Shown here one piece after another: positions 3,430-33,773 of a stretch of DNA of 35,960 nucleotides. The stretch is from Oscillatoriales cyanobacterium (GTDB lineage: Bacteria; Cyanobacteriota; Cyanobacteriia; CACIAM-69d), in NCBI GenBank assembly GCA_004292515.1, contig RDXB01000076.1:1-35960 (forward strand). Reading direction: 5' to 3'. Position numbers and translations under genes: made by a program. Within the stretch, counting starts at the first letter, position 1. Every line of letters starts with the position of its first letter. The notes beneath the pieces are model-generated. The model did not search any database, had not been told where the DNA came from, and worked only from the letters and a program-made list of their open reading frames with translations.

Positions 3430-3648
3430 GGGGTAGTTCCTTACGGACAATAGAATGGCCGACTTGACTCGCGAGGAGGGCAAAATTGCCGTCTCGATCG
3501 CAGCAAATTGGCAAGGATTCACGGGCTGTATATCATACCCCACCCAGGGCCGGCGCGATCGCCCCAATTTGGACGGGGGCGCGCGAGCCTCGGCCTAATC
3601 GGCCCGATGTTCAGTACAGGTTGAAACAGGTGATTGGCCGCCCCAACT

Positions 3649-3737
3649 GTCGTAACAAGGGGCTTAAGCCCCTTGTCCCCTACGATCTTCTAGTCACGGT
3701 GAAATCAGGGGTTCAGATGATTGGACGACAGCCCCTA
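3649..3737 (+). repeat. Dispersed palindromic repeat, copy 2
   Basis: GTCGTAAC is followed by the perfect palindrome at 3657-3674 and a diverged flank (CACGGTGAAATCAGGGGTTC, then GGACGACAGCCCCTA). Its right edge supplies the stop codon of the tic20-like gene on the opposite strand (CTA at 3735-3737), so the element abuts coding sequence exactly. Confidence 0.8.
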
Positions 3738-9483: not shown

Positions 9484-9557
9484 CCTAGACAAGAGGCTTA
9501 AGCCCCTTGCCCCCTACGATCCGCTAACGGAGGAATCAGGACTTGGGGCGATTTGAC
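9484..9557 (+). repeat. Dispersed palindromic repeat, copy 3
   Basis: The palindrome at 9491-9508 has one mismatch (AAGAGGCTTAAGCCCCTT). It is followed by CCTACGATCCGCTAACGGAG, GAATCAGGACTTGGGGCG and ATTTGACCAC, the same flank as the other copies. It lies between cysS and the HAD hydrolase gene. Confidence 0.8.
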
Positions 9558-10663: not shown

Positions 10664-10762
10664 CAACAAGGGGCTTAGGGGGTGTCGTCGTTTCGCCTAA
10701 AACCCTGACTCTGCCGTTAGCGGATCGCTGGGCAGCAAGGGGCTTAAGCCCCTTGTTACGAC
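10664..10762 (-). repeat. Dispersed palindromic repeat, copy 4 (inverted)
   Basis: This copy is in the opposite orientation to copies 1-3. CAAGGGGCTTAGGGGGTGTC leads into GTCGTTTCGCCTAAAACCCT, then GCCGTTAGCGGATCG, the palindrome at 10737-10754 and GTTACGAC. It also shows an extra half-palindrome (AAGGGGCTTAGGG) at the outer end, which copies 6 and 7 share. It lies between petN and the 43-residue peptide gene. Confidence 0.82.
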
Positions 10763-10839
10763 GGCTGGAGCATGGAAAATCAACCGTTTCAGCTTGATCC
10801 CAGGCGATTCTGTGGGTTTGGCTAATGTGGCAACCAGCC

Positions 10840-19522: not shown

Positions 19523-20190
19523 CCGGTACTCTCTCCTGCGGCTGGGTTGGGATGAGGATGGGGAACGCGAAACGCTTGCTATCTAGGCACTTGTACCAGA
19601 TCGCCGATTGGCGCTGATACGCAAATCGAGGATCTGACACAATTCGATAAAATCAATTGTCGGTTTTGTTGCGGTTTGTTGCAATTTTTATGATTCAAAT
19701 CCGTTATGTTTCTCGGGGATTTATATGGCTAGCCCAATCGATCTGACGCTTCTGAGTGCTGGGTTTGACCGGTCTAGGCGGCCATCGGGGCGATCGGGCT
19801 TTGTCGGGTTGTCCAGACAACTAAATTAGAACAAAAACCAAACAAAGGGCTCGGTAACTGTCACAAGCCCGATCGCGAGTGCAGCCCGACTTGACTAGCT
19901 TGGCAAGCTTAAAGTGCGAGGCCAAACACCAGAGTCCAGTCCGCCAGCGTTAATGCCGGTCATTATCATTCTGGGATCAAACTGAAATCGTTGATTTTCC
20001 ATGCCCCAATTGTCGTAACAAGGGGCTTAAGCCCCTTGCCGCCCCACGATCTCGTACCGGTGGAATCGGGGTTTGGGGCGAAATGACGACAGGCCCTAGC
20101 CCCTAAACATTGCCGATCAACCGTTGCTCCTAGCAATCTCCAATCCCTGAGCGGCTGGGGACTGAGGGGGTGTCGTTCCAGGGATCGCCA
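19523..20190. other. 668-bp spacer upstream of chlH
   Basis: No convincing gene lies here. The left part, next to chlH, is AT-rich (about 19635-19700) and probably contains the chlH promoter, but I cannot single out -35/-10 boxes. The right part holds dispersed repeat copy 5. Confidence 0.6.
20012..20099 (+). repeat. Dispersed palindromic repeat, copy 5
   Basis: GTCGTAAC, the perfect palindrome at 20020-20037, CCCCACGATCTCGTACCGG, TGGAATCGGGGTTTGGGGCG and AAATGACGACAGGCCCTAG follow in the same order and orientation as copies 1-3. It lies between sasA and chlH. Confidence 0.85.
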
Positions 20191-21369: not shown

Positions 21370-22073
21370 AAGTAGTAAAGTCTGCGATCGAGTAAAAAAT
21401 CACCGCCCAAAATTGATGCCCATCGGTGCGATCGAGAACCCCAGGTTTACGCAACCACAGGTCTACGCTGGCTGGGCTGTGCCGCAATCAGCATTCAACA
21501 ACCACTCGGAAGCAGAGAGCAAACAGGCCAGTCCTTGAGCTTGACCTCGATCGGGCCATATCCTCCCAATCGAGCTGGCGGCGATCGACCGGTGAAGACT
21601 GCACAAACGACCACAAATCAATCACTTCATCACGCTCATCCCCGTGGGGAGAGGTGATTAAACACATCACTAAAAAATGCATCTTGGATCAGACATTCAG
21701 CGTTTCGTGATGCAGCCGATCGCCAGCAAGGGATCAACACCAAGATTGGATTGATTGATCGATGCCAGCAATCTCGGTCAGTTGGGGGCTCCAGCCACAC
21801 CCAGAAATGCAGTGAATGCAGTTGTGCGGATCAGTGCCGCAGCTGGTGATAGCAATTTCTACTCAAGCAAAGACCAGTGATTGCTGTCGCAAGGGCGGAG
21901 CGATCGTCTGAACTCTCTCCAGACTATCGCTTTCACAGGGGCTTTCGATTGCTTGTAACGTTCTGATTCAGAGTTATCTCGGGGGTAGAGGCTGCCACAT
22001 CACCCGAAATTCTGACTCCACCATGGGGAGTCAAGGTTTTGCGTAAGTTCTAACTAAGTCCTAACTCTGTATG
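21370..22073. other. Long spacer upstream of sasA without a clear gene
   Basis: This 700-bp stretch has several short open frames in both directions but none with protein-like composition or a ribosome site. It contains a hairpin-forming CTCATCCCCGTGGGGAGAG near 21636-21654, discussed in the findings. The tandem array at 22074 follows. Confidence 0.5.
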
Positions 22074-22192
22074 CCCGAGCGAGCAATATACCCGAGCAAG
22101 CAATATACCCGAACGAGCAATATACCCGAACGAGCAATATACCCGAACGAGCAATATACCCGAATGAGCAATATGCCCGAGCGAGCAACGTA
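22074..22192 (+). repeat. 17-bp tandem array, seven units
   Basis: Seven head-to-tail 17-bp units of CCCGAACGAGCAATATA fill 119 bp with no gaps. Units 3-5 are identical; the outer units differ by one to four bases. The unit length is not a multiple of three, so the array is not coding. It runs directly into a degenerate piece of the dispersed palindromic repeat. Confidence 0.95.
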
Positions 22193-22226
22193 GGCAAGGG
22201 GCTTGAGGGGCTTGCCCCCCACACCT
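22193..22226 (+). repeat. Degenerate piece of the dispersed repeat
   Basis: GCAAGGGGCTTGAGGGGCTT, then GCCCCCCAC, resembles the palindromic core with one arm altered. The conserved GATTTGACGAC flank is missing. It adjoins the 17-bp array. Confidence 0.5.
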
Positions 22227-25277: not shown

Positions 25278-25493
25278 ATGACCTCCGATCATCCTCCGAA
25301 ATCTAAAAATACAGCCGCAATTTTGTGTTTTTTGCTAGGTGGATTGGGGATACATCGGTTTTATTTAGGCCACACCTGGATTGGTGTAGTTCAGTTGCTG
25401 ACCTGTGGCGGCTGCTTAATTTGGTCGTTGATTGACTCCATCGCCATTCTGACTGGCGATCTCAAAGACAGCCACGGACAGGATCTGGTCTAG
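25278..25493 (+). CDS. TM2-domain protein, copy A
   Basis: The 71-residue protein is a TM2 domain: a polar N-terminus, a first helix ILCFLLGGLGIHRFYLG (with the signature GIHRFYLG), a glycine/cysteine turn (LLTCGGC) and a second helix with LIDSIAILTG. Such proteins are widespread and of unknown function. A second copy lies at 25887. The two share roughly 60% of residues, with the differences concentrated in the N-terminus and second helix. Its stop overlaps the stop of a minus-strand DUF2358 fragment. Confidence 0.88.
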   Translation: MTSDHPPKSKNTAAILCFLLGGLGIHRFYLGHTWIGVVQLLTCGGCLIWSLIDSIAILTGDLKDSHGQDLV

Positions 25494-25745
25494 GGTTGAC
25501 TGCCCGATTTCGCAATGCCGAAATGCTGCTGAACTACATTCCAGGTGGAGCAGTGCCAATAATCAATGTGCGAATTAATTAAGCCCCGATCGCTCAGGCC
25601 CAGTTCGCTCCAACCGGCGATCGCAATCCGGGGTTGCCAGGGCAATGGTGTAGTCCAAGTCAGCATCCAATCGGTGCAAATGAGGCGATCGCCCGGGGCT
25701 TGAATTTGTTGAAGCTGGAGGACGGGATCACGAAACCAGCGATCA
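25490..25745 (-). pseudogene. Truncated DUF2358 copy
   Basis: This fragment reads DRWFRDPVLQLQQIQAPGDR, TDWMLTWTTPLPWQPRIAIA and HIDYWHCSTWNVVQQHFG, the C-terminal half of the DUF2358 protein encoded intact at 26151-26555. The N-terminal half is missing. A possible ATG at 25765 arises from unrelated sequence (MKSLALP). The C-terminal residues after HFG also differ from the intact copy. Of 229 bases in the shared block (25516-25744), 227 are identical to 26165-26393. It is probably non-functional. Confidence 0.75.
25516..25744. repeat. Duplicated block, copy A (pairs with 26165-26393)
   Basis: A 229-bp block identical to 26165-26393 except for two transitions and with no gaps. Both copies have the same orientation, making a direct repeat with a 649-bp offset. 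Similarity ends abruptly on both sides. Confidence 0.95.
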
Positions 25746-25793
25746 GGTAAAGCCAGCGATTTCAATGAAGGGGATTGTTATCAGGAATACTCC

Positions 25794-25821
25794 TTGACAA
25801 TTATACGTGAGAAAGCATAAT
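25794..25821 (+). promoter_or_regulatory. Sigma-70-type promoter for TM2 copy B
   Basis: TTGACA at 25794-25799 and CATAAT at 25816-25821 are 16 bp apart, close to the consensus. It lies about 65 bp before the start codon of TM2 copy B and just outside the end of the duplicated block. Confidence 0.6.
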
Positions 25822-25886
25822 GGCTTTAGGTTCGTAAGAATCACTTGTTTTCAGTACTGGTGTAAGTATCCAAATCGAGATTCCTG

Positions 25887-26114
25887 ATGACTTCTTCACC
25901 CCCTCCCTCTCCAGCTCCCAAATCCAAGGTTGCAGCGGCTCTGTTGTGCTTTTTCTTGGGTGGGCTTGGGATCCATCGGTTCTACTTGGGCTACACCACA
26001 GTAGGGCTTGTCCAGTTGTTTACTTGTGGGGGATGTTTTATGTGGATGTTGGTTGACTTGATTGTTATCTTGACCGGCGGACTCAAAGATAGTGAAGGGC
26101 GTGAATTAACCTAA
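25887..26114 (+). CDS. TM2-domain protein, copy B
   Basis: The 75-residue protein has the same build as copy A: a Pro/Ser-rich N-terminus, LLCFFLGGLGIHRFYLGYTT, LFTCGGC and a second helix. It has its own near-consensus promoter. As with copy A, a DUF2358 sequence follows on the opposite strand, so the TM2/DUF2358 pair is duplicated as a unit. The function is unknown. Confidence 0.9.
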   Translation: MTSSPPPSPAPKSKVAAALLCFFLGGLGIHRFYLGYTTVGLVQLFTCGGCFMWMLVDLIVILTGGLKDSEGRELT

Positions 26115-26150
26115 ACCCACATTGAGTCCAGTCGTTATGGAGATAGGGAT

Positions 26151-26555
26151 CTAGAAGTTAGCGCTGCCGAAATGCTGCTGAACTACATTCCAGGTGGAGC
26201 AGTGCCAATAATCAATGTGCGAATTAATTAAGCCCCGACCGCTCAGGCCCAGTTCGCTCCAACCGGCGATCGCAATCCGGGGTTGCCAGGGCAATGGTGT
26301 AGTCCAAGTCAGCATCCAATCGGTGCGAATGAGGCGATCGCCCGGGGCTTGAATTTGTTGAAGCTGGAGGACGGGATCACGAAACCAGCGATCGATAAAC
26401 GAGATTGTTTTGCGGTAGCGATCGAGTCCCCGAAATTCACTGGTCGGATCTTTGAAGTACACATCGGGTTCGTAAATTGCAAAGGTCTGATCTTTGGGAA
26501 AACGACCATAATCGGCTTTCAGAATTTCGATAATCTCTGCAATTGATTGCGACAT
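26151..26555 (-). CDS. DUF2358 protein (SnoaL-like fold)
   Basis: DUF2358 proteins occur in cyanobacteria and plants and are predicted to have an NTF2/SnoaL-like fold; their role is unknown. From the ATG at 26555 the protein has 134 residues: IIEILKADYGRFPKDQTFAI, VYFKDPTSEFRGLDRYRKTI, TPLPWQPRIAIAGWSELGLS and SSHIDYW-type SHIDYWHCSTWNVV. That covers the full family length. The open frame continues 38 codons upstream, but this is translated tandem repeat, so I use the ATG at the edge of the repeats. No clear Shine-Dalgarno is present. Confidence 0.85.
   Translation of the reverse strand: MSQSIAEIIEILKADYGRFPKDQTFAIYEPDVYFKDPTSEFRGLDRYRKTISFIDRWFRDPVLQLQQIQAPGDRLIRTDWMLTWTTPLPWQPRIAIAGWSELGLSGRGLINSHIDYWHCSTWNVVQQHFGSANF
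26165..26393. repeat. Duplicated block, copy B (pairs with 25516-25744)
   Basis: This is the intact-gene copy of the 229-bp direct repeat. It covers the C-terminal part of the full DUF2358 gene, up to the codons just downstream of FIDRWF. It differs from copy A at two positions only. Confidence 0.95.
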
Positions 26556-26610
26556 TGAATCTTTGAAGTTGAATCTTTGAAGTTGAATCTTTGAAGTTGA
26601 ATCTTTGAAA
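26555..26610 (+). repeat. 14-bp tandem array, four units, at the DUF2358 start
   Basis: Four head-to-tail units of TTGAATCTTTGAAG lie immediately upstream of the DUF2358 start codon (on the minus strand). The last unit ends in A instead of G. The array replaces the position where a Shine-Dalgarno would be expected. Confidence 0.93.
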
Positions 26611-26687
26611 TAGTTGCTGACTATTTTGGCACTGGCAGAGCGTTTGACTCTGAAATTTGAAGCCGACAATTTGAATTGGCTGCGCTG

Positions 26688-28603: not shown

Positions 28604-28725
28604 GTGACAAAGGGCTTAGGGCCTGTCATCAATTACCCTGAAACCCTGAAATTACCCTGAAACCCTGATTCCACCGTTAACGGATCGGATCGTGGGGGCA
28701 AGGGGCTTAAGCCCCTTGTTACGAC
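28604..28725 (-). repeat. Dispersed palindromic repeat, copy 6 (inverted)
   Basis: GACAAAGGGCTTAGGGCCTG starts this inverted copy. CCCTGAAACCCTGAAATTA is then duplicated in part, followed by GATTCCACCGTTAACGGATC, the perfect palindrome at 28700-28717 and GTTACGAC. It has the same outer half-palindrome as copies 4 and 7. It lies in the spacer before the Ig-like/propeller gene. Confidence 0.85.
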
Positions 28726-28984
28726 CATTGAGGCGCGGGAAATCGACGATTTCAGACTCAGTTATGGAAAATGATGACACCCCTAAGCTTCTTGCTTTCT
28801 GCGATCCCGTTTCCTGCGATCTCGCTGCGATGGCATCTAGGCTGCGGCCCCCGTCATGACAGGTTCTCAGGCAGGCCGTGTCAATCCAGTTGGCGACTGC
28901 AATGGGCGTTTTAGTTCGCTTTCTGCATTCGCTTTCTTTATTTGCTTTCCTCGTTCGCTTTTTTGTTGGTCTTCTTGAGCTGTT

Positions 28985-33634: not shown

Positions 33635-33729
33635 GCAGGGGCTGAGGGCTTGTCGTCAAATCACCCACAACCCTGATTCCACCGTTAGCAAATCGTTGGG
33701 GGGCAAGGGGCTTAAGCCCCTTGTCTACG
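33635..33729 (-). repeat. Dispersed palindromic repeat, copy 7 (inverted)
   Basis: CAGGGGCTGAGGGCTTGTCG, TCAAATCACCCACAACCCTG and ATTCCACCGTTAGCAAATCG lead to the perfect palindrome at 33705-33722 and TGTCTACGA. The order matches copies 4 and 6. It lies between the convergent VTE5-like and pheS genes. Confidence 0.85.
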
Positions 33730-33773
33730 AGGATTGGGTGTCTACGACGATTGGATGTCTAAGACGATTGGGG
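33723..33773. repeat. 17-bp tandem array, three units, at the edge of repeat copy 7
   Basis: Three 17-bp units of GTCTACGACGATTGGAT (with small differences) start inside the terminal GTTACGAC-like edge of copy 7. They seem to be a local expansion of the element's end. Confidence 0.8.

Follow-up and report, generated by a model that had tools for sequence, protein, structure and literature searches.

A near-identical partial copy of a DUF2358 gene between diverged TM2 paralogs in an Oscillatoriales cyanobacterium

Results

Organization of the TM2–DUF2358 locus

The window analyzed here is a stretch of 35,960 nucleotides (contig RDXB01000076.1, C26 in our numbering) from the draft genome of an Oscillatoriales cyanobacterium (assembly GCA_004292515.1; 3.98 Mb, 111 contigs). 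Two genes for TM2-domain proteins and two stretches of DUF2358 sequence alternate within it, as follows.

25278–25493, + strand: TM2a, encoding a 71-residue TM2-domain protein (PF05154) of a short kind rare in cyanobacteria; profile search
25516–25744, − strand: copy of the 3′ part of DUF2358, a probable pseudogene fragment; 229 bp with 2 mismatches relative to 26165–26393
25745–25886, + strand: spacer upstream of TM2b, without detectable homology to the DUF2358 5′ half
25887–26114, + strand: TM2b, encoding a 75-residue TM2-domain protein; 49 of 71 aligned residues are those of TM2a
26151–26555, − strand: full-length DUF2358 gene (PF10184), native; profile search and grouping with congeners
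26165–26393, − strand: source of the duplicated block, within the full-length DUF2358 gene; repeat comparison

Both TM2 proteins scored far above the PF05154 cut-off over the whole domain (TM2a, 80 bits; TM2b, 76.3 bits; cut-off, 27.9; profile positions 2–51 of 51). Two hydrophobic stretches are visible on inspection of the sequences, and TM2a and TM2b would be small two-helix membrane proteins. A third TM2 gene, of a different kind, lies on contig C103 of the same genome. The full-length DUF2358 gene, whose reading frame is open to 26669, matched PF10184 with 106.3 bits (cut-off, 24.3; profile positions 2–113 of 113). Its weak second match in the profile search, to SnoaL_2 and below the cut-off of that family, fits a predicted NTF2-like fold, which would make the product a SnoaL/NTF2-like protein. 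The DUF2358 family also occurs in plants and algae: one member is in the list of Chlamydomonas photosynthesis candidates in PMC8448359, and rice and Arabidopsis members figure in a study of salt tolerance and light energy (PMC9105198).

As the initial annotation had described, both TM2 genes converge on DUF2358 sequence of the opposite strand, half-length after the first gene and the full gene after the second. The TM2 genes stand between petE and DUF2358, and the right-hand neighbor of DUF2358 is a regulator gene. The spacer upstream of TM2b contains a promoter-like TTGACA-16-CATAAT at 25794–25821 (11 of 12 positions); finding one such site in a scan of 1.9 kb does not exceed chance expectation. 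Immediately upstream of the start codon of DUF2358, at 26555–26611, a 14-bp unit (ttgaatctttgaag) is repeated in tandem about four times. The window also carries a dispersed repeat family of approximately 50 to 120 bp whose palindromic core reads AAGGGGCTTAAGCCCCTT in L187, with copies at 2860–2935, 3639–3716, 9489–9540, 10696–10792, 19982–20074, 28641–28760, and 33669–33736; more copies are present on contig C84, and shorter matches in a congener (G002).

The repeated block and the DUF2358 fragment

Alignment of 25516–25744 with 26165–26393 confirmed the reported 229 bp of DUF2358 with two differing bases, located at 25590/26239 and 25678/26327. The exact runs common to both copies are 74, 87, and 66 bp long. 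This block tops the repeat families in the 6.5 kb examined, and a 229-bp repeat is far beyond chance. A search for further copies of the block found DUF2358 at two places only in this genome, and plasmid records searched for a copy of the locus gave no match. The two block copies are direct repeats that flank TM2b, and homologous recombination between them should be able to delete 649 bp together with that gene, a loss that we predict to be likely.

The frame of the fragment (25493–25765, − strand) scored 47.6 bits, above the PF10184 cut-off, over profile positions 55–113 of 113 only; positions 1–54 are missing, and the fragment fails a full-length domain match. As listed, the frame opens with TTG, and an in-frame ATG occurs only inside the domain stretch, none being present ahead of the domain. 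Counted by the NG86 method, both differences between the block copies are nonsynonymous, and the 51.3 synonymous sites show none. At the first, the fragment reads TGC (Cys) and the full copy CGC (Arg), the codon of both congeners; this Arg is kept in 15 of the 29 DUF2358 homologs and is therefore not invariant. At the second, the fragment reads GAT (Asp), the full copy GGT (Gly), and the congeners TCC, which leaves the polarity undecided, so that one of the two base differences is polarizable through the congeners. With the full-copy bases taken as ancestral at the two sites, the changes would be C to T and G to A, kinds that are common in unselected sequence. Because it retains half of the domain, has no ATG ahead of the domain stretch, and carries a changed Arg, the fragment is most likely dead, judging from its sequence. 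As a truncated, near-identical copy with two nonsynonymous and no synonymous differences, it resembles other partial gene duplications that leave a pseudogene fragment; unlike the usual case, it sits between two old paralogs of another family, in a position that imitates a duplicated pair.

Origins of the DUF2358 and TM2 genes

In a DUF2358 tree, the full copy groups with its congeners (94/82) inside the family clade (98/98), and for this reason we regard it as an ordinary native member of the family. A DNA search of the genus (three genomes, this one included) gave congener matches limited to the DUF2358 part, at 74 to 75% identity. Identity to the congeners is only 69 to 71% for DUF2358, against 88 to 89% for petE and 90% for the response regulator. 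A single DUF2358 copy was seen in relatives at genus distance only, in both congeners.

The TM2b protein had no match in either congener, and a search for the TM2 family there returned only another TM2, of 148 residues and encoded elsewhere in the genome. TM2b matched 231 of 388 cyanobacterial genomes (own included) at an E value of 0.001 or better; the only close relative besides its own genome is in G066 (61% identity, E = 1e-28; next best, 2.4e-10). When relatives of the short TM2 were sought in a genome collection, a search that may leave out records very near the window, the best 80 of 103 confirmed places were kept. Counted by titles, 54 of these 80 are from Bacteroidota, and the remainder are from Planctomycetota, SAR324, Actinomycetota, Bacillota, and others; no title names a cyanobacterium. 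Compared with the common cyanobacterial TM2, the genes in the window are thus of a short kind whose relatives, among the matches listed, are mainly from Bacteroidota. Transfer of a short TM2 into this lineage is likely; alternatively, an old cyanobacterial TM2 may have been lost in other lineages.

In a large TM2 tree, built from 122 rows and 69 columns, TM2a fell with long-branched cyanobacterial rows. In a smaller tree of 62 columns and 55 of the 122 rows (TM2a, TM2b, L060–L114 minus those with long branches, plus L141, the sole additional cyanobacterial row), sisterhood of TM2a and TM2b was not rejected (p-AU 0.43). The two genes may have arrived separately. Their G+C content is 0.47 to 0.50, against 0.57 to 0.59 in three neighboring genes, but this is weak evidence of transfer, because congener DUF2358 is low as well, at 0.45 to 0.46; we dropped it as a proof.

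Recurrent neighbors of TM2 and DUF2358

DUF2358 lies directly upstream of a gene for an ArsA/Get3-type ATPase, on the same strand, at 9 of 29 loci (L004, L005, L008, L010, L011, L014, L017, L018, and L030), representing 7 of 21 families, with 81 to 202 bp between aligned ends; both congeners have this arrangement. The ArsA/Get3-type proteins tested, those of this genome and of G002, combine the domains ArsA_ATPase and ArsA_HSP20. Identification of this neighbor with plant Get3d was considered and dropped: Nostoc All4481 (3igf, 8egk), which we take to be the Get3d of PMC10248533, matched it more weakly than three other Get3/ArsA proteins did, and its best matching stretch covers residues 3 to 175 only.

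TM2 has a recurrent neighbor of its own. It stands beside DUF2752 (PF10825) at 14 of 25 cyanobacterial DUF2752 loci and at 33 of 80 TM2 loci of other phyla, examples being L186:9057–9762 (G066), L061, L073, L139, and, in cyanobacteria, L192, L201, and L204. The listed pairs are same-strand; DUF2752 is the downstream gene in most of them and the upstream gene in L112 and L152. No TM2 was found within approximately 1.5 kb at 11 of the 25 DUF2752 loci, which include those of this genome and of both congeners. As a control, neither the TM2 nor the DUF2752 profile matched any of the 29 DUF2358 loci. The family name "DUF2752" had no match in the literature searched.

The genome under study has both members of the TM2–DUF2752 pair, as others do, but on separate contigs, with DUF2752 adjoining the ArsA/Get3-type gene; DUF2358 in turn is apart from its recurrent neighbor, with a half-length copy alongside. 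The ArsA/Get3-type gene, whose protein is 97% identical to that of G002, lies on C84, away from DUF2358. Upstream of its start codon, 78 bp align with G002, as far as C84:14804; the match then ends, within 28 bp of the DUF2358 gene in G002. The place upstream of the ArsA/Get3-type gene that DUF2358 has in both congeners (C84:14700–15644; L188:6701–7645) is occupied by a divergent DUF2752 gene, and a copy of the dispersed palindromic repeat (C84 15032–15106) lies in the ArsA–DUF2752 junction. Partners have therefore been exchanged, such that TM2 stands with DUF2358 in the window and DUF2752 with the ArsA/Get3-type gene on C84. A conserved stretch beside DUF2752 (C84 15887–16341) was examined as an RNA candidate and contains a short reading frame, presumably that of ribosomal protein S21, which follows DUF2752 in G002 too.

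A single inversion might account for this exchange, having broken a TM2–DUF2752 and a DUF2358–ArsA pair and created both new junctions, with the fragment as a by-product or a later event. Both pairs are recurrent, the ArsA upstream sequence follows G002 almost to DUF2358 before giving way to DUF2752, a dispersed repeat marks the junction, and the orientations at both junctions fit one inversion. Against it, the neighbor of DUF2752 in G002 is a gene that we take to be murF-like, the DNA retrieved from the two congeners yielded no TM2, and petE is only 13.6 to 13.7 kb from DUF2358 in both congeners; these three observations call for more than one rearrangement step. The regulator gene to the right of DUF2358 is on another contig in the congeners, and gene order in this genome is generally scrambled. 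We consider the inversion less likely than not. It concerns adjacency and is compatible with the explanation of the locus that we favor below.

The DUF2358–ArsA pair provides a lead to the function of DUF2358, and, if functional, suggests a candidate role in the targeting of tail-anchored or thylakoid membrane proteins. A bolder proposal, which we offer as speculation with the odds against it, is that two conserved but little-studied gene pairs were split and re-sorted here: TM2–DUF2752, encoding small membrane proteins and present in several phyla, and DUF2358–ArsA/Get3 (with an HSP20-like tail). DUF2358 would then take part in handling membrane proteins destined for the photosynthetic membrane, and this genome, in which both pairs are broken, would naturally test the importance of adjacency.

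Unequal ages within the locus

The TM2a and TM2b proteins share 69% of aligned residues (65% of 75 columns), somewhat more than the "about 60%" first given, and by NG86 their genes differ with pS 0.76 (saturated) and pN 0.19. At the TM2 rate, the probability of no synonymous difference in the DUF2358 block would be approximately 7e-33, a rough figure that assumes independent sites. With pS 0.76 on one side and no difference in 51.3 synonymous sites on the other, the TM2 pair and the block are of unequal age, unless one of them was converted, and near-identity marks the second DUF2358 copy as recent.

Duplication of a TM2–DUF2358 unit, as initially annotated, predicts equal age of all parts and homology running through the spacers. 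The ages are unequal, and the flank scores lie within those of shuffled sequence: of 1000 shuffles, 417 scored at least as high as the right flank of the fragment compared with the DUF2358 5′ half and beyond; the count was 148 for the first 49 bases of that flank, 841 for the left flank, and 833 for the TM2 upstream regions. For the TM2 coding regions, which served as control, none of 1000 shuffles did as well. Homology was detected only in the 229 bp and in the coding parts of the TM2 genes, and TM2 and DUF2358 were probably never duplicated as a pair. The N-terminal half that the first DUF2358 copy was thought to have lost is indeed absent, but these comparisons detected no trace of its former presence.

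We consider it reasonably probable that the locus was assembled by genome reshuffling, with the 3′ part of DUF2358 recently copied on its own to a place between older TM2 paralogs. Two short, anciently diverged TM2 genes would have come to stand between petE and the native DUF2358, and the 229-bp 3′ part of the latter would then have been copied between them over approximately 0.65 kb, in a stand-alone, nonhomologous event linked to replication or repair. Duplication of a TM2–DUF2358 unit would have had no part in this. The fragment would make no useful protein and would be decaying, and TM2a, TM2b, and full-length DUF2358 would remain as functional genes without a special link. So read, the locus looks like ordinary genome evolution. 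The closest strain available has approximately 75% DNA identity over DUF2358, and the order of events is inferred at that distance.

The initial annotation had offered gene conversion or a second, later duplication for the contrast in age. That contrast is real, and later, separate copying fits it better. Under conversion, an old tandem duplication of TM2–DUF2358 would have been followed by degradation of one DUF2358 to its 3′ half and by recent conversion of the DUF2358 part only. Such a history explains both the contrast and the convergence of each TM2 gene on DUF2358 sequence, and conversion reaching only as far as homology did would leave sharp ends. No diverged homology was detected beside the identical tract, but the original homology may have extended no further than this tract. 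Just beyond the C-terminal end of the block, a few codons appear faintly alike by eye, a resemblance that the flank test did not support. We prefer the recent stand-alone copy because neither block flank nor the TM2 upstream regions retain homology; moreover, DUF2358 adjoins ArsA rather than TM2 in both congeners, and an old unit finds no support elsewhere. We regard conversion of an old unit as rather unlikely, slightly more so than the single inversion considered above.

TM2 is not a recurrent partner of DUF2358 in the loci surveyed

From the constant pairing in the window, a functional link between TM2 and DUF2358 had been suggested, with a survey of other cyanobacteria as the check. DUF2358 is present in 349 of 388 cyanobacterial genomes. 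Among 29 other cyanobacterial DUF2358 loci, fetched with approximately 1.5 kb per side (two with less), none had a TM2a or TM2b protein match in that range, and a TM2 profile built here found none. Conversely, DUF2358 was beside none of 49 other cyanobacterial TM2 loci (48 with flanks of approximately 1.5 kb and one of 19 kb; some were fetched twice, leaving about 45 distinct places) and none of the 80 TM2 loci from other phyla, taken with flanks of up to 4 kb. In 32 other genomes with both families, the closest TM2 and DUF2358 on one contig are 24 kb apart, a figure that covers same-contig pairs, the distance between contigs being undefined. More than one TM2 match was seen in 8 of 124 other TM2-matching loci (L096, L098, L109, L116, L129, L136, L145, and L152), with three in L136.

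In this sample the two families thus do not co-occur as neighbors outside the window, and TM2–DUF2752 and DUF2358–ArsA are the better supported neighbor pairs. That TM2 and DUF2358 work together, with selection keeping them paired, would fit their adjoining twice in the window; given the surveys, and a fragment that lacks half of the domain, we find this very improbable. A false functional lead is thereby removed, and the case illustrates that a stray fragment copy can pass for a duplicated gene pair.

Remaining alternatives and minor observations

Just as improbable is retention of the fragment as a source of antisense RNA, in which read-through from TM2a would yield a transcript complementary to the DUF2358 mRNA in its 3′ part. 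Its orientation and the identity of 227 of 229 bp allow such pairing, and a scan for terminator-like sites found none separating TM2a from the fragment, though it did find one within TM2a itself, at 25392–25414. The arrangement shows no conservation, however; a search of the window and L188 against Rfam at gathering thresholds gave no match; and read-through from TM2b would act in cis without any fragment. An assembly artefact, a collapsed or chimeric repeat in a draft of many contigs, is the least probable reading of all, because the copies differ at two bases and share exact runs of at most 87 bp, which makes short-read misassembly unlikely, and their flanks are unique.

Elsewhere in the window, at 22054–22224, short tandem repeats fall in overlapping frames on both strands and encode GILLxRxYCSFGYI-like and ERAIYPxxQYTR-like peptides.
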